Below are positions 49,566-56,626 of a stretch of 64,000 nt of DNA, piece by piece; within the stretch, counting starts at the first letter, position 1; every line of letters begins with the position of its first letter. Position numbers and translations under genes: made by a program. The stretch comes from Brevibacillus humidisoli (lineage in GTDB: Bacteria > Bacillota > Bacilli > Brevibacillales > Brevibacillaceae): contig NZ_CP087263.1 of assembly GCF_020923435.1 (NCBI RefSeq), forward strand, positions 4,808,001 to 4,872,000, in the 5' to 3' direction. Below the pieces are notes generated by a model. That model made no database searches. It was not told the origin of the DNA and saw only the letters and a program-made list of their open reading frames with translations.

Positions 49566-50054
49566 ATGAGTGGACAGGATCAGATGGGGCAGACGATTCC
49601 GGTCCGGTTTCGTCTCATGACACTAGATGACGTAGAGTGGGTTGGGGAATTGGAGCGATTGGCCTTTCCCACACCGTGGCCGACGGATGCTTTTGTCAAC
49701 GAACTGACGATCAACAAACACGCCCGATATGTAGTAGCCGAAGTAGAGGGGCAGGTCATCGCCTACTGTGGCATGTGGCTGCTCGTGGATGAAGCGCACA
49801 TCACCAACGTCGCCGTCCATCCCCATTACCGCGGACGGGGAATCGGTGAGCGGCTGATGCGGCAGATGATGGGCTTGGCCCTGTTGCAAGGTGGGGAAAA
49901 GATGACGCTGGAAGTGCGGCCCAGCAACCATAGCGCGCGCCGCCTCTACAAAAAGCTCGGTTTCATGGAGCACGGGATTCGCAGGAAGTACTATACGGAC
50001 AATGACGAAGATGCCATTATCATGTGGGTGAATTTACGTGAACAAGAAAACTGA
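49566..50054 (+). CDS. rimI: Ribosomal protein S18-alanine N-acetyltransferase RimI
   Basis: 162 aa from ATG behind GAGGGGAAAAC. GNAT fold: [21 protein letters not shown] is the acetyl-CoA-binding A motif and [29 protein letters not shown] the B motif with the catalytic Tyr. RimI acetylates the N-terminal Ala of S18. Its place between tsaB and tsaD is the standard Firmicute order. It overlaps the tsaD start by 17 bases. Confidence 0.95.
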
Positions 50055-51120
50055 CACGCGCTATCATCAGCGCGTCCAGCAAACCTATCAACAGCATATA
50101 AAATCAGGCCGACCGACGCTGCTGCTTGGCATTGAGACCAGTTGTGACGAGACCTCGGCCGCCGTGGTCCAAGATGGCACGACGATCCTCTCCAACGTGA
50201 TCGCCTCCCAAGCAGAGATTCATAAGCGCTTTGGCGGTGTCGTGCCGGAAGTTGCCTCACGACGTCACGTGGAAAACATCACGCTTACCGTAGAGGAGGC
50301 GCTTCGCCAAGCGGATAAAAAGCTGGAGGACATCGCGGCAATCGCTGTCACACATGGTCCCGGACTGGTAGGTGCGCTTCTCGTAGGGATTGCCGCCGCC
50401 AAGGCGATTTCGTTTGCCCGCGGCATCCCACTGATTGGCGTTCATCATATTGCCGGTCATATCTATGCCAACCGCCTGATCACAGAGCTTTCCTTTCCGC
50501 TGATCGCGCTGGTCGTATCCGGCGGGCATACGGAATTGGTGCTGATGCGCGAACACGGCAGCTTTGAAATCCTGGGGCGGACGCGTGACGATGCTGCCGG
50601 TGAAGCCTACGACAAGGTAGCGAGAGCACTCGCTCTGCCATACCCCGGTGGACCGCAGATCGACCGGTTGTCCCGGGAGGGCATGGCTTCGATTCCGCTA
50701 CCGCGTGCCTGGCTGGAGCCGGGTTCGTACGATTTCAGCTTCAGCGGTCTGAAGTCGGCGGTATTAAATACGCTCCACAATGCGAAGCAGCGCGGCGAGA
50801 CGATCCCGCCTGCCGATTTGGCCGCCAGCTTCCAGGAATCCGTAGTGGAGGTACTGGTGGAAAAAACGATTCGCGCCGCCACGGAGTACAAGGCGCAGCA
50901 GGTTCTGCTGGCGGGAGGCGTCGCAGCAAATCAAGCACTCCGTGACCAGTTGGCTGCCCGCTGTGCAAAGGCAGAACTGCCGCTAGTCATTCCTCCATTG
51001 TGCCTTTGTACGGACAATGCTGCGATGATTGCGGCTGCCGGCCATATTTCCTATCTGCGGGGGAAGTTCGCCTCGCTCGACTTAAACGGTGTGCCCGGCT
51101 TGCCGCTTTCTGATTTATAG
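50038..51120 (+). CDS. tsaD: tRNA N6-adenosine threonylcarbamoyltransferase TsaD
   Basis: 360 aa from GTG inside rimI, with a roughly 28-residue N-terminal extension before the usual start of homology [20 protein letters not shown]. The metal-binding H137 and H141 are in [12 protein letters not shown]; further landmarks are [37 protein letters not shown] and [11 protein letters not shown]. TsaD (formerly Gcp) attaches threonylcarbamoyl to A37 of tRNA. The last 134 bases are overlapped on the opposite strand by the TVP38-type gene. Confidence 0.95.
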
Positions 51121-51874
51121 GTCTGGTGTACAGCTGATATCGTCCGGTGAACGGATCATCGCACTTTTTTCCCTTGATGCTGCTCGTCTGTTTCATCAGC
51201 TGAACGAACCATGCCTCCAGTCGCTGCCGCTGCCAGACAGCCAACAGAACAAGGACGCCGCATACCACCGCAATCGATACCCACAAGCCAGTCGACCCGG
51301 TAATCACCCCGGTCGTAATCAGGAATGTCAGGAGAATGCCCGGCAGTCGACCGATGAACACCAGCAGCAGGAAGCGGCGAAACGAGACGGCAGAAAGCCC
51401 TGCCAAGGCACAAACCGCGTCGTCAGGCAGAAAGGGCAGCAGAAAGATGACAAACAGCCAGACTCCGCGCGCATCACAAAAGCCGATATAGCGGCGAAAA
51501 ATGGTTTCCCCAACCATCTTGGTGACGAGCGGGCGTCCCCATCTGCGAGCGAGCAGAAAGATCATCACGGAGCCTACTACGGCACCGGCCAAACTGAGTG
51601 CAACGCCCTTGTAAAAACCAAACAAGAGCCCACCGGCGACCACAACGACCGGAGCGGGAATCGGAGCGATCACGACCTGCAGAACCTGCAGGAAAAAATA
51701 AACGATCGGTGCCCAAGGGCCGTAGCTTTCAACAAACTGGCGGTGCGCCTCGGCCGAAGAGAACACGTGACGAGCCTGTTCCCAGAGAAGGGGCCAGTCA
51801 GCTTGTACCGTAGCGTAACCGACGGCTGCTGCTGCTATGATCAAACTGAAAAGAAGGATTGTGCGGTGTTTCAC
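50987..51874 (-). CDS. TVP38/TMEM64 (DedA-like VTT domain) membrane protein
   Basis: 295 aa from GTG. Five or six membrane segments with the VTT signature [27 protein letters not shown]...[56 protein letters not shown] and [21 protein letters not shown]. Related proteins are lipid scramblase-like or phospholipid flippase-like. The last ~45 residues (after GRYQLYTRP) are basic, low in hydrophobicity and are simply the antisense of the tsaD end, so the natural stop seems to have been lost and a new one recruited inside tsaD. Confidence 0.85.
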
Positions 51875-52063
51875 GGAACAGATACGCCCCTTTCTGGCTG
51901 GTGTTGCGCTTGATCAGGTCAACCGTGCCGGGACGGGGTTTTCTTTTTGCTGCCGCCTATACTACGCGGAGATTTGCTGCTATGGTATAGTCTTTCATTA
52001 CGCTGTATAGGTACACGAAGAAGAAGTTTCCGTCATGATCGATGAAGACCGAGCATCACGGCT

Positions 52064-52461
52064 TTACCCACAGGCAGTCATTCAGCGCAGTTGTGGAAAA
52101 GAAGCGACCTCTTGTGGGAATTGTGGATAAATTGTGGTGAACAGCTATGTTTCAGGTAGAATCCTGTGGAATAAATTGTGGCCAATGTGGATAAAGCTGT
52201 TGAAAACAGCACTGAGCAGAAGAGTGTCCGCAAGAGGACCTGCTCATTTATCCACAAGGAGGCTTTTATGCACAGGGTGCGTACGATCTGGTTGCTGACG
52301 ATCATGACATGCCTGCTTACCGTTGGCGTAGGAACAGTGGCGACCGACGTCCATGCAGTCGGTTCGCAGCAGCAACCACCCAAACAGGCCATTGTCGTAT
52401 TTATTGAAAATATGTCTTTTACCGATCTTCAACAACTTCAGCATTATCCACATGTGAATAA
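52064..52461. promoter_or_regulatory. DnaA-box cluster
   Basis: Exact TTATCCACA boxes: 52122-52130 and 52186-52194 (minus), 52248-52256 and 52444-52452 (plus). Consensus TTWTNCACA matches: 52092-52100 and 52453-52461 (minus). Weaker, seven or eight of nine: 52064-52072 (plus), 52113-52121, 52133-52141, 52165-52173, 52177-52185 (minus). The 52248 box touches the AAGGAGG ribosome site of the next gene and the last two boxes lie back to back in its coding region. The rest of the gene-free stretch 51875-52267 holds no other feature I can name. Confidence 0.8.
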
Positions 52462-54619
52462 AGGACTGCGTCACGCTTACTATGCGGCACTGACGATGCG
52501 AACTCCAGGAGCCCGCAATGATGCCAATGCCTATCTGCTGATGGGCAGTGGTGGTCAGGCGTTGTACACCAGCCGCAGCGGCACCGTTTATCACCGGGAA
52601 GAACAAGTGGAACTGGCGGAGATGCAAGGGGAAGGAACAGCTGCAGAACGAATGATCCAGATGCGCGGTATAGAACCAGCCGTGCAGAGGGAATCAGTAC
52701 CGAAGTTATTGTTTCCCGGCATCTACCGACTGCATGCTTATAACGAAGATAGACCATTCACGGCTCGTATCGGACTGCTTGGCTCTACATTGCAGGAAGC
52801 AGGTATTGATGTTGCGCTCTACGGGAACGGTGACACGGCGGAGGGGAAACAACGGCATGCCGCGTTGTTCGCGATGAACCGGGATGGAGAAATTCCCAGA
52901 GGGGATGTCTCTGCCCGCACGACGCTGCGGGCAGCGGGATACCCGGACGGAATCCGCACTCATTACGGTTATCTGCTGGAGAGGATCAGGCAGGAGAGGT
53001 CAGGCCTGATCGTCGTGCAAATCGCCGACTTGGCCCGTCTGTATCGTCTGCAGGAATACCTGGCACCAGAGCACTATCAGCGACAGTATCAAAAGGTACT
53101 GGCTGATTTGGATCAATTCTTGGGAGTACTGCTTGCGGAGCGGAAGCCAGGTCAGCTGATCATGGTGACGTCGCCGTCTGTCAATCCGATAGCAGTTCAA
53201 GAAAAATCGTTGCTTACACCGATGCTTCTGTGGAAAGGGACCACCGCAGGAGGTGAACTGGCATCAATCACCACCAGGCAGAATGGTTTGGTCAGCGGAT
53301 TGGACGTATTGCCGACGATCCTCTCTTGGTTGTCAGTACCGATTCCAGAGGGCGTGATCGGACACGTGATGTCAGGAGTCCCCGTAGAGGGGGAGAAGGC
53401 CGTCTTCTCAGAGGCCGACTTTTCGGACTCCTCTGTTAGCAGATTGCCTTTCTTTACAGAATTTATGGGGAAAGTAAACCAGATCGACCGCATCTATCAA
53501 AACCGCTCCGGGATCATGTATACCTACGTGATGCTGCAGATCATCATTCTCATAGCAGCAGCAGTAGCTTGGGTGTGGCAAAAAGACGGCAAACGTCCAC
53601 TTGCTTACAAATTGCGACGGATTGTTCGCCTCTCCCTGTTGGCCATGCTGTTTTTTCCAGCGCTGTTCCTGATCGAACCGCTGCTGAGTTGGTCTGTTCC
53701 CGCCCCTGTTATAATTGCGGTGATCGTCATGTTTGCATTGGGTGGGGCCCTGTTGGTGGAGCACTGGAAGCTGCCGCAGCTGCTGCTGGCAGTCGCTGGT
53801 TTTACCGTTGGCTGTATCCTGCTTGACGGGTTTACAGGAGGAGAAGCGATGCGCCGCTCCTACCTGGGCTATGATCCGGTGATCGGTGCCCGCTTTTACG
53901 GATTGGGTAACGAATACGAGGGCGTGTTGATCGGGGCCAGCATACTGGCTGTTGCTGCCTTGTACGAATGGCAAAGGAGGCGGCAGCAGGCCCTCTTGAC
54001 ACAGCCGTTTCTCCTGACGGTGGCAGGGTTTGCGCTCACCCTCTACTACATGGCTGCTCCCTCGTTGGGCACCAATGCGGGCGGTTTCCTGGCCGGAGCA
54101 GTCGGCTTCGGTGTCACACTGTTTCGCCTCGAAGGCTGGGAGTTCGGTAAAAAGGGTTTCATCCTGTGTGGAGGAGGACTGATCGGCGGGATTGCGTTGA
54201 TTATTGCTCTTCATCTCAGCTCGTCAGAGCCTCTTACCCATGTAGGTGTAGTCGCAGCCGACATTGTCAATGGCAATTGGAGTGACGTGCTCCACATCGT
54301 ACAGCGAAAAATCGAAATGAACCTACGGCTGATCCGTGTTTCTTCATGGAGCAAGATGTTTGTCATCTCACTGATCGTCATCGGGTTGTTAAGCTTGCGG
54401 CCGGACCGCTATCTACGCCGTCTCTCGCAGCGGTACCCCTATCTGGTCAGAGGATTCAGCGGTGTGGTTGCCGGTTCACTGGCAGGTTTGGTGCTCAATG
54501 ATTCCGGTATCGTCTCCGCTGCTACCTCAATCATCTTTTTTGCCGTCCCCGCGCTATTTGCCGCGCTGGGGGAAGGGGAAAAGCTGCCATCCGTCGATTC
54601 GGCAGAGGCTGGCAGCTAG
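52268..54619 (+). CDS. Alkaline phosphatase-superfamily-like protein with polytopic membrane C-terminal half
   Basis: 783 aa from the ATG behind AAGGAGG. A signal segment (1-32) leads to an extracellular domain (about 40-400) with the fold pattern of the alkaline phosphatase/phosphoglycerate mutase superfamily (IVVFIENMSF, a long alpha/beta body, and GLVSGLDVLPTILSWLSVPIP near its end). From about residue 415 there are roughly ten membrane segments with SYLGYDPVIGARFYGLGNEYEGVLIGA. The metal-binding Asp/His set of active enzymes is not clearly complete, so catalysis is uncertain. It may modify or survey envelope glycopolymers (inference). Confidence 0.75.
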   Translation: MHRVRTIWLLTIMTCLLTVGVGTVATDVHAVGSQQQPPKQAIVVFIENMSFTDLQQLQHYPHVNKGLRHAYYAALTMRTPGARNDANAYLLMGSGGQALYTSRSGTVYHREEQVELAEMQGEGTAAERMIQMRGIEPAVQRESVPKLLFPGIYRLHAYNEDRPFTARIGLLGSTLQEAGIDVALYGNGDTAEGKQRHAALFAMNRDGEIPRGDVSARTTLRAAGYPDGIRTHYGYLLERIRQERSGLIVVQIADLARLYRLQEYLAPEHYQRQYQKVLADLDQFLGVLLAERKPGQLIMVTSPSVNPIAVQEKSLLTPMLLWKGTTAGGELASITTRQNGLVSGLDVLPTILSWLSVPIPEGVIGHVMSGVPVEGEKAVFSEADFSDSSVSRLPFFTEFMGKVNQIDRIYQNRSGIMYTYVMLQIIILIAAAVAWVWQKDGKRPLAYKLRRIVRLSLLAMLFFPALFLIEPLLSWSVPAPVIIAVIVMFALGGALLVEHWKLPQLLLAVAGFTVGCILLDGFTGGEAMRRSYLGYDPVIGARFYGLGNEYEGVLIGASILAVAALYEWQRRRQQALLTQPFLLTVAGFALTLYYMAAPSLGTNAGGFLAGAVGFGVTLFRLEGWEFGKKGFILCGGGLIGGIALIIALHLSSSEPLTHVGVVAADIVNGNWSDVLHIVQRKIEMNLRLIRVSSWSKMFVISLIVIGLLSLRPDRYLRRLSQRYPYLVRGFSGVVAGSLAGLVLNDSGIVSAATSIIFFAVPALFAALGEGEKLPSVDSAEAGS

Positions 54620-54679
54620 CAGGAAAGTTCGTTGTCAAGATCAACCGGTAAGATCGCAAGCAAGATGACTTGCCAGATC

Positions 54680-56626
54680 CTACCCATCAGATAGCATCGC
54701 CCACTCGTCTAGCAGCATCTCCAACTCAGCTTTGGCTTGCTGTATAGCGTCGTTTCGTGCCTTGGCTTTTTTGTGGTCATTGTACACCTCGGGTTGGCAC
54801 AGTTCATCTTCCCAGCCGGCGATCGATTCCTCTAGTTCGGAAATCGCCGTTTCCAGCTCTTCCAAACGGCGCAGCCGCTGACGTTCGCGCCGCTTCGCTT
54901 CTTTATCCTGTTCGTAACTCGATTTTTCCGGGGGTTGATTTGCCGCTGCGAGAGAGCTTGTTTTGCCGGAGCTGGCCTTGGCTTCTGCCTGTTCGGCAGC
55001 CAATTCGGCCAGTTCCTGTTTCTTTTCTACATAATAATCGTAGTTGCCGAGATAACTGGTGACACCATCGGCGGATAATTCCAGCACACGGGTCGCCATC
55101 TTGTTTAAAAAATAGCGGTCATGCGAGACGAACAAGATGGTGCCTGGATAGTCAAACAGGGCGTTTTCCAATACTTCTTTGCTCAAGATGTCCAAGTGGT
55201 TGGTCGGCTCGTCAAAGATCAAGAAATTGGCCTGCTTTAACATCAGCTTGGCCAGCGAGACACGCGCTCGCTCACCGCCGGACAGATCGCCGATTTTTTT
55301 CAGCACATCATCGCCGCTAAACAGGAAGTTGCCAAGCACTGTGCGCACTTCTCTCTCCTGCATCTGGGGGTACTGATCCCACAGTTCGGCCAGAACCGTC
55401 TTGTCATCTCGCAGATCTTCCTGTTCCTGATCGTAGTAGCCAGTGCTGACGTTGCTGCCGTACTGGATCTTGCCGGTCAGGGGCGGAAGCTGTCCAATTA
55501 CTGTCTTTAGCAGTGTCGACTTTCCGATGCCGTTGGGACCAACTAGCGCCACCCGCTCTTCGCGCTCGATGGCAAAGGTTATGTTGCTGGCGAGAGCGTG
55601 ATCCGGGTAGCCGATGCTGAGCTGTTCCGCCTTTACGACATCGTTTCCGCTCATGCGGGCGATATCGAAGCGAAACTGCGCCGCTTTGGAGTGGGTGATC
55701 GGTTTCTCCATCCGGTCCATTTTTTCCAGCGTCTTGCGGCGACTCTGCGCTCGGCGCGTCGTAGAAGCACGGGCGATGTTGCGCGCGATAAAATCTTCCA
55801 GCCGGGAAATCTCCTCCTGCTGCTTTTCATACTGCTGCAGTTCCTGTTCCATTTTGGCTGCCTTCAGGTCCAGAAACTGACTGTAGTTCCCCACATAGCG
55901 AGTTGCTTTTGTCCGCTCAATCTCGTAGATCACGGTAACCAGCTTGTCCAGAAAGTAGCGGTCGTGGGAGACGACAAGGATCGCTCCCTTGTAGTTGAGC
56001 AGATACGTCTCCAGCCAGGATAGCGTCTCGATATCCAGGTAGTTGGTCGGCTCGTCCAAGAGCAGCACGTCAGGTGCTTGCAGCAGCAGCTTGCCTAAAG
56101 CCAGGCGGGTTTTCTGTCCGCCGCTCAGCGTGTGGATCGGGGTATTGGTATCCATCTCTGAGAATCGAAGTCCGTTCAAGACTCCGCGGATGCTGGCTTC
56201 GTAGCTGTAGCCGCCGTGCTCCCGAAAGGCATCGGAAAGGACAGCATAGCTGTCGGCGATTTGCTGATAGCGTTTTTCGTCGGCCAGCACCTGCTCGTCA
56301 CCCATCAAGGCTTCCAGACGACGCAGTTCTTGCTCCTCTTTGCGCAGGTGATCGAAAACAGAGAGCAGCTCTTCCCATATCGTTCGCTCCGATTCCAGTC
56401 CACTGTCTTGGGCCAGATAACCAATCGTCACTTCTTTTGGCTTACGAATCGTGCCGCTATCATGTCCCAACTCGCCGGCGAGGATTTTCATCAGGGTCGA
56501 TTTGCCGGCGCCGTTTGCCCCCACCAGCCCGACACGCTCCCCGGTTTGAACTTGCAAGGATATATCTTGTAAAATGGTTTCAATCCCATATGCTTTGCTG
56601 ATGTGTTCGGCTTGCAACAAAATCAT
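54680..56626 (-). CDS. ydiF: ABC-F family ATP-binding protein (YdiF type)
   Basis: 648 aa with two ABC cassettes and no membrane segment. Walker A GANGAGKST and GPNGIGKST, signatures LSGGQKTRLALGKLL and LSGGERARVSLAKLM, Walker B DEPTNYLDIE and DEPTNHLDIL, a linker rich in Arg/Lys (RNIARASTTRRAQSRRKTLEKMDR) that enters the ribosomal E site in this family, and a C-terminal coiled coil. It probably acts on ribosomes as a translation factor; no antibiotic-resistance-type leader is seen upstream. GAGGTGAAACG lies before the ATG. Orientation opposite to tsaD and tat as in Bacillus. Confidence 0.93.
   Translation of the reverse strand: MILLQAEHISKAYGIETILQDISLQVQTGERVGLVGANGAGKSTLMKILAGELGHDSGTIRKPKEVTIGYLAQDSGLESERTIWEELLSVFDHLRKEEQELRRLEALMGDEQVLADEKRYQQIADSYAVLSDAFREHGGYSYEASIRGVLNGLRFSEMDTNTPIHTLSGGQKTRLALGKLLLQAPDVLLLDEPTNYLDIETLSWLETYLLNYKGAILVVSHDRYFLDKLVTVIYEIERTKATRYVGNYSQFLDLKAAKMEQELQQYEKQQEEISRLEDFIARNIARASTTRRAQSRRKTLEKMDRMEKPITHSKAAQFRFDIARMSGNDVVKAEQLSIGYPDHALASNITFAIEREERVALVGPNGIGKSTLLKTVIGQLPPLTGKIQYGSNVSTGYYDQEQEDLRDDKTVLAELWDQYPQMQEREVRTVLGNFLFSGDDVLKKIGDLSGGERARVSLAKLMLKQANFLIFDEPTNHLDILSKEVLENALFDYPGTILFVSHDRYFLNKMATRVLELSADGVTSYLGNYDYYVEKKQELAELAAEQAEAKASSGKTSSLAAANQPPEKSSYEQDKEAKRRERQRLRRLEELETAISELEESIAGWEDELCQPEVYNDHKKAKARNDAIQQAKAELEMLLDEWAMLSDG

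Follow-up and report, generated by a model that had tools for sequence, protein, structure and literature searches.

The tsaD-ydiF interval of Brevibacillus humidisoli contains a dense group of DnaA boxes outside oriC, of the kind found in the off-origin DnaA-box clusters of Bacillus subtilis, and its sequence and position make it most likely orthologous to the B. subtilis gcp-ydiF cluster. We consider it likely that the cluster acts as an off-origin sink for DnaA, with a possible side role at the adjoining gene memP (a name coined here). By analogy with B. subtilis it probably helps to control the timing of chromosome copying, since a similar cluster lies beside tsaD in most of the sampled families, even where the other neighbouring gene is missing. 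The window referred to below is the whole stretch of DNA analyzed, 64 kb in length (positions 4808001-4872000 of one 4,908,260-bp contig), and the features used are the following.

50038..51120, plus strand: tsaD (gcp) ORF, upstream neighbour (Pfam TsaD, 6.9e-100)
50987..51874, minus strand: VTT-domain membrane protein ORF, between tsaD and the cluster (Pfam VTT_dom, 4.7e-20)
52064..52072, plus strand: DnaA-box-like TTACCCACA, one mismatch (motif scan)
52092..52100, minus strand: DnaA-box-like TTTTCCACA, one mismatch, fits TTWTNCACA (motif scan)
52122..52130, minus strand: exact DnaA box TTATCCACA, aligned in both congeners
52133..52141, minus strand: weak site, two mismatches (motif scan)
52165..52206, minus strand: head-to-tail array of four sites from 52165, 52177, 52186 (exact) and 52198, with spacings of 12, 9 and 12
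52248..52256, plus strand: exact DnaA box TTATCCACA, immediately 5' of the memP Shine-Dalgarno AGGAGG, the same in genomes G001 and G002
52266..52274, plus strand: DnaA box TTATGCACA over the memP start codon, also in G002
52268..54619, plus strand: memP, 783 aa (ORF; AlphaFold model, Foldseek)
52444..52461, no single strand: inverted double box TTATCCACA-TGTGAATAA in memP codons (synonymous-shuffle test in the family)
54680..56626, minus strand: ydiF-type ABC-F protein ORF, downstream neighbour (Pfam ABC_tran, ABC_tran_Xtn)

The four exact TTATCCACA boxes, which the first-pass annotation had placed within about 400 bp, lie at 52122(-), 52186(-), 52248(+) and 52444(+), all within 331 bp, and are the only exact copies in the 64-kb window; shuffled sequences contained 0.53 copies on average and none of 100 reached four. 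Allowing one mismatch, eight sites were found in the 398 bp from 52064 to 52461, four of them exact, and allowing two mismatches the number in the same segment was 12. The annotation had correctly counted five weaker sites, namely TTACCCACA at 52064(+) with one mismatch and those at 52133, 52165, 52177 and 52198 (all minus) with two mismatches, but the further matches to TTWTNCACA are three rather than two (TTTTCCACA at 52092(-), TTATGCACA at 52266(+) and TTATTCACA at 52453(-)), giving a total of 12 and not 11. A scan in 400-bp windows with 100-bp steps revealed a mean of 0.10 sites with up to one mismatch per 400 bp, compared to eight in the cluster, and no more than one at distances above 600 bp from it; together with the shuffle control, this supports the claim that the density is far above chance. 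In the head-to-tail array the three non-exact sites have two mismatches each, both congeners have an aligned counterpart of the exact box at 52186, and genus g7 has head-to-tail pieces of a similar kind.

The 4.9-Mb genome contains 45 exact boxes and 22 copies of the reversed pattern. The genome-wide comparison of box density proposed with the annotation came out in its favour: by exact boxes, four within 400 bp are found only at this locus and at 4294632-4294968, directly upstream of dnaA-dnaN. This ranking starts from exact boxes, so that clusters with no exact box would escape it. The first 30 of the 45 exact-box places (L001-L030) were read with 1.5-kb flanks, five places (4314073, 4488328, 4562368, 4784565 and 4884765) entering without flank reading, and the densest among the 30, allowing one mismatch per site, had seven boxes per 400 bp at one place (L028/L029) and six at L030. 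Two other loci also have groups of boxes. At L034 (4884-5043, at 4275.4 kb, 19.6 kb to the left of dnaA) seven boxes with up to one mismatch cover the start of an oligoendopeptidase-F-like gene that adjoins a mechanosensitive-channel gene, and at L033 (4317-4464, at 3726.3 kb) four same-strand boxes with spacings of 12, 115 and 12 precede a gene whose product has the domains of sigma-70 regions 2 and 4.

The gene order at the cluster is tsaD (+), the VTT-domain gene (-), the cluster, memP (+), the ydiF-type ABC-F gene (-) and a 5-formyltetrahydrofolate cyclo-ligase gene (+). In tblastn searches (1e-5) of the corresponding regions of 58 relatives, the VTT-domain ORF had as sole match a short piece in G002, where the tail of the ORF is antisense to tsaD; the gene thus seems to have been inserted locally, separating tsaD from the cluster. 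The ORF and the 3' end of tsaD overlap tail to tail by 134 bp (50987-51120). The view that two unrelated genes had been inserted here therefore holds for the VTT-domain gene alone. A local insertion of memP was rejected, since in 17 families memP and the cluster occur together near tsaD and ydiF, and memP is an old neighbour of the cluster. An RNA element at the cluster was also rejected, as Rfam gave no match up to an E value of 1 in 51850-52700.

The memP product has an N-terminal helix, an alkaline-phosphatase-superfamily-like domain and many long helices, which we take as transmembrane. No Pfam family matched and the best NCBIfam match was insignificant (E 0.22). The AlphaFold model (mean pLDDT 89.7) matched alkaline-phosphatase-superfamily enzymes in Foldseek, with E values from 1.2e-5, target-normalised TM scores of 0.25-0.56 and identities of 9-13%, and the 50 best matches include phosphopentomutase, LtaS, YejM and MCR-1; the predicted likeness is one of fold and implies no function. 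The gene is common in Firmicutes (at least 508 loci) and probably encodes a membrane protein.

The conservation of the cluster was determined across the class Bacilli. TsaD was found in 59 and 151 genomes (176 distinct), and for 139 of them, B. humidisoli included, the DNA that follows tsaD was read. A cluster was called where the stretch from tsaD to ydiF held at least four sites with up to one mismatch in 400 bp; with ydiF out of view, the limit was set at the end of memP or at 3 kb. By this rule 110 of 138 usable genomes, from 29 of 40 families, have the cluster. In agreement with the proposal that selection keeps it in place, this is far above what permuted motifs gave (300 motifs, shifted look-alikes excluded: mean 0.05 genomes, maximum 3). 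In a control without this exclusion one motif, which we suspect to be a shifted copy of the real one, scored in 53 genomes. Loss of the boxes in close relatives, which would have spoken against the proposal, was not observed: the cluster was found in 34 of the 35 members of the family, the exception (G031) being a contig end. Sampling favours the cluster, since 35 of the 138 genomes are from its own family and 14 of the 37 unfetched genomes from families that lack it, and the family count is for this reason fairer than the fraction of genomes.

Fewer than four boxes were found in 28 of the 138 genomes, in a few of them through contig ends. In 11 families (f5, f11, f16, f17, f19, f22, f24, f25, f26, f31 and f34) no sampled member has the cluster, f24 nearly qualifying with three boxes, and on this sequence evidence some lineages can do without the cluster. 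For 122 genomes with two or more boxes, the densest window of the fetched region fell inside the tsaD-ydiF interval in 112, compared to 38.9 expected from interval length. Because columns picked as boxes in most genomes give a biased conservation, boxes were defined in one reference genome. Identity at these positions was 0.82-0.95 within the genus (three genomes) and averaged 0.91 in g7 (12 genomes), against 0.51-0.59 in the 9-nt flanks of the boxes in both comparisons; in other genera of the family it was 0.66 at boxes and 0.41 in flanks. These comparisons suggest that the cluster has probably been kept since early in the class Bacilli. Among the literature matches listed, none dealt with its conservation across Bacilli as judged by title or opening of the abstract, and an earlier mention in Okumura 2012, Ishikawa 2007, Breier 2009 or Goranov 2005 is possible.

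Other known DnaA regions were compared in a smaller set. In B. humidisoli, six boxes surround the start of trmE (mnmE) and ywlC (tsaC) has four within 400 bp; in B. subtilis, too, these two genes adjoin DnaA regions (PMC4447404). No box cluster was found in the 3.5-kb yqeG locus. The comparison across genomes covered tsaD-ydiF, ywlC and trmE, yqeG and sda being looked at in B. humidisoli only and ywcI/vpr and yydA left out. Of 31 genomes, 26 had at least four boxes per 400 bp in tsaD-ydiF, 18 had them upstream of ywlC and 11 had them upstream of trmE, so that tsaD-ydiF is the most widely kept of the three. In two genomes without the tsaD-ydiF cluster (G038 and G118, of f5 and f34; loci L361/L362) six boxes lie upstream of ywlC, as though one cluster might replace the other. 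The window cluster, L030 (about 1462-1780, at 4288.6 kb) and L305 (about 2081-2255, at 3980.4 kb) are all at tRNA-modification genes; trmE/mnmE, ywlC/tsaC and tsaD are such genes with clusters, and they also mark DnaA regions in B. subtilis. The products of ywlC/tsaC and tsaD act in the same t6A pathway. The occurrence of clusters at three tRNA-modification genes may be a coincidence.

In B. subtilis the gcp-ydiF interval is a high-affinity DnaA region (region 4) with 10 sites and a Kd of 0.15 uM for ATP-DnaA, and at 55 nM ATP-DnaA bound 16-fold more of this DNA in vitro than ADP-DnaA did (PMC4447404). The interval is the same as that occupied here, as the annotation had stated: the order is tsaD, cluster, memP and ydiF in B. 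humidisoli, and across the class it is found with and without memP. Ten sites in B. subtilis compare with eight (up to one mismatch) here, and both clusters are several hundred kb from dnaA (summit at 627955 in B. subtilis; tsaD at 563 kb here). The B. subtilis position was taken from the published description (PMC4447404), not from its sequence; that cluster lies between two convergent 3' ends and has no gene of its own, whereas the cluster of B. humidisoli is upstream of and inside memP and is separated from tsaD by the VTT-domain gene. Deletion of six off-origin clusters in B. subtilis, a set to which gcp-ydiF belongs, is reported in reviews to cause early initiation, which is strong only when all six are gone; according to one review the role of such clusters is unsettled between passive titration, active control and gene regulation. 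The datA locus of E. coli is likewise an off-origin DnaA-box cluster with a negative effect on initiation, but it acts with IHF by promoting hydrolysis of ATP-DnaA (review), and B. subtilis is described as lacking IHF (2026 review).

In B. humidisoli, with a genome of 4.9 Mb, tsaD lies downstream of dnaA at a distance of 563 kb, and each round of replication thus reaches the cluster early. The median distance in 39 genomes was 535 kb, with tsaD co-directional with the fork in all 39 and on the right arm in 33. A position near oriC proves little by itself, since tsaD is also near oriC in two genomes without the cluster (G055 and G061), and old synteny may explain it.

The orientation and spacing of the boxes revealed trends across families. 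Relative to tsaD, minus-strand boxes were in excess in 27 of the 29 families and equal to plus-strand boxes in the remaining two, plus-strand boxes being in excess in none (497 minus and 198 plus among the 695 boxes of all clusters). The bias is weaker in the family of B. humidisoli (114 to 87), and the window itself has four boxes on each strand. Strand composition was rejected as the cause, the 37 exact boxes outside the two main clusters being divided 20 to 17 relative to the leading strand. Same-strand neighbours at 9 or 12 bp were found in 75 of the 110 clusters and in 23 of the 29 families, compared to five clusters at 10/13 bp and 17 at 8/11 bp. When box positions were randomised (300 shuffles), a 9-bp tandem, present in 58 genomes, occurred in at most 22; at the level of families the observed 23 (9 or 12 bp) compared with a mean of 14.7 and a maximum of 21, indicating that the family-level excess is small and that the contrast with 10/13 and 8/11 bp is clearer. 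Under the rule of up to one mismatch the window has no same-strand pair at 9 or 12 bp, and its 12-9-12 array needs sites with two mismatches.

By analogy with B. subtilis, DnaA would bind the cluster cooperatively, and the head-to-tail sites would favour ATP-DnaA. The preference for ATP-DnaA is that of the B. subtilis region and its link to head-to-tail order is our conjecture; the 2015 binding study states that too few regions were at hand to define what gives some of them this preference (PMC4447404). A bound cluster would hold free DnaA back from oriC, as the negative effect on initiation in B. subtilis suggests. Early copying would double the capacity of the cluster in each round and so might damp re-initiation.

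The main rival is that the cluster is primarily a DnaA operator of memP, acting at the start of transcription or translation, any effect on replication being incidental, which we regard as unlikely. The boxes stand beside the Shine-Dalgarno, on the start codon and in the coding part, the inverted double box being 176 nt into memP; thus the claim that boxes run into the 5' coding region of the membrane-protein gene was right, although the gene is not an insertion. The boxes of the start region exceed what coding constraint predicts: in 30 of the 33 genomes of the family that carry memP, which are related and so not 30 independent cases, the first 360 nt of the gene contain 40 boxes, against 10.1 in synonymous shuffles (sd 2.7, maximum 17). 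The rest of the same 30 genes contains 15, against 9.2 (sd 2.7, maximum 18). G009 (L073) contributes eight of these 15, all with up to one mismatch, where 1.5 were expected. Where tsaD and memP are separated, the cluster stays with memP in G007, G018, G022, G088 and Paenibacillus ferrarius. A memP promoter under the boxes was rejected, since a crude sigma-70-type scan found no match near the cluster (two in 51000-54900, compared to 2.4 in shuffles).

On the other hand, the cluster is often found without the gene. Among 135 genomes (four cut contigs omitted, memP scored in the fetched regions), 69 have both, 39 the cluster without memP, three memP without the cluster and 24 neither, and the 39 argue against the regulation of memP as the only role of the cluster. 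Of these, 38 belong to 12 families with no memP in the fetched regions, and the other is G004. A whole-genome search for memP in 28 genomes without a regional copy, 24 of them with the cluster, gave six matches, all short and below 22 bits. On the TsaD tree the presence of memP changed at least nine times in directions that the tree does not polarise, so that to speak of its loss is our reading, and a test of correlated change between memP and the cluster had too few pairs.

G004, a member of the same family with no memP match in its genome, keeps six boxes, including an inverted pair, GTATCCACA-TGTGGATAA, which in its relatives sits within memP codons; from its position and its identity with, for example, G015, we infer that this pair is a surviving homologue and not a new one. 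In f8 (five Tepidibacillus-like genomes) the cluster is by tsaD, and memP, in the four genomes where it is in view, starts 2.1-2.7 kb downstream of the cluster start. Of the best 80 of at least 508 named memP loci in the alignment scan, the 40 with tsaD in the locus all have the cluster, whereas none of the 40 without it there does; the latter have at most three boxes and are mostly from Clostridia or relatives, with one cut Tepidibacillus contig. Those with tsaD are from Brevibacillus, Ammoniphilus, Aneurinibacillus, Tepidibacillus, Kroppenstedtia, Melghirimyces, Marinithermofilum, Chengkuizengella, Paenibacillus, Caldalkalibacillus, Alkalihalophilus pseudofirmus and a Bacillaceae MAG.

A DnaA sink is the likely main role of the cluster, and it is plausible from the sites that the boxes also regulate memP: in genomes that carry the gene, it may be repressed by DnaA occupying its ribosome-binding site, start codon and early codons. 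The DnaA-regulated operators of B. subtilis (dnaA, sda, yqeG, ywlC, trmE and others) similarly have boxes at the gene start, but gcp and ydiF are outside the eight gene sets listed in a review, and regulation of memP is what we infer here.

A further reading, which we hold to be quite improbable, is that of a class-wide oriented assembly site for ATP-DnaA. On the head-to-tail arrays at 9 and 12 bp, which lie mostly on one strand with respect to tsaD and the fork, ATP-DnaA would form a polar filament. Like datA, but in Gram-positive bacteria, the site would alter the oligomer or nucleotide state of DnaA shortly after passage of the fork; it would have begun as, or joined, a memP operator and outlived memP in many lineages, a former piece of memP coding sequence included. 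The reading is weakened by the lack of strand bias among the eight boxes of the window itself.

A second or backup replication origin is very hard to credit. The exact boxes are as many as upstream of dnaA, a region with 7-11 boxes (up to one mismatch) in all but one of the 18 genomes for which 600 bases could be read. However, neither dnaA nor dnaN adjoins the cluster, the GC skew is positive throughout the window with no switch, and the commonest spacings differ from those of the dnaA region, where, in 21 stretches, some of them short upstream, opposite-strand pairs at 30 and 12 bp were commonest (12 each) and same-strand pairs at 12 bp occurred in five; on these three grounds the reading was rejected. 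Nor is there a strongly AT-rich stretch (lowest 100-bp GC 0.40), and one B. subtilis paper calls the off-origin clusters of that species inhibitory and the use of alternative origins unlikely. Every genome has some densest locus, but a chance or compositional cluster with no function is next to impossible in view of the shuffle and permuted-motif controls and of the same place being kept in 29 of 40 families, and we hold it refuted by the comparison across genomes.

The many orthologous clusters of the Bacilli reveal trends in box orientation and spacing that are beyond the reach of one genome, and the genomes that carry the cluster without memP provide a natural experiment separating gene regulation from a role in replication. 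If the cluster were an oriented assembly site, it would do more than soak up DnaA.
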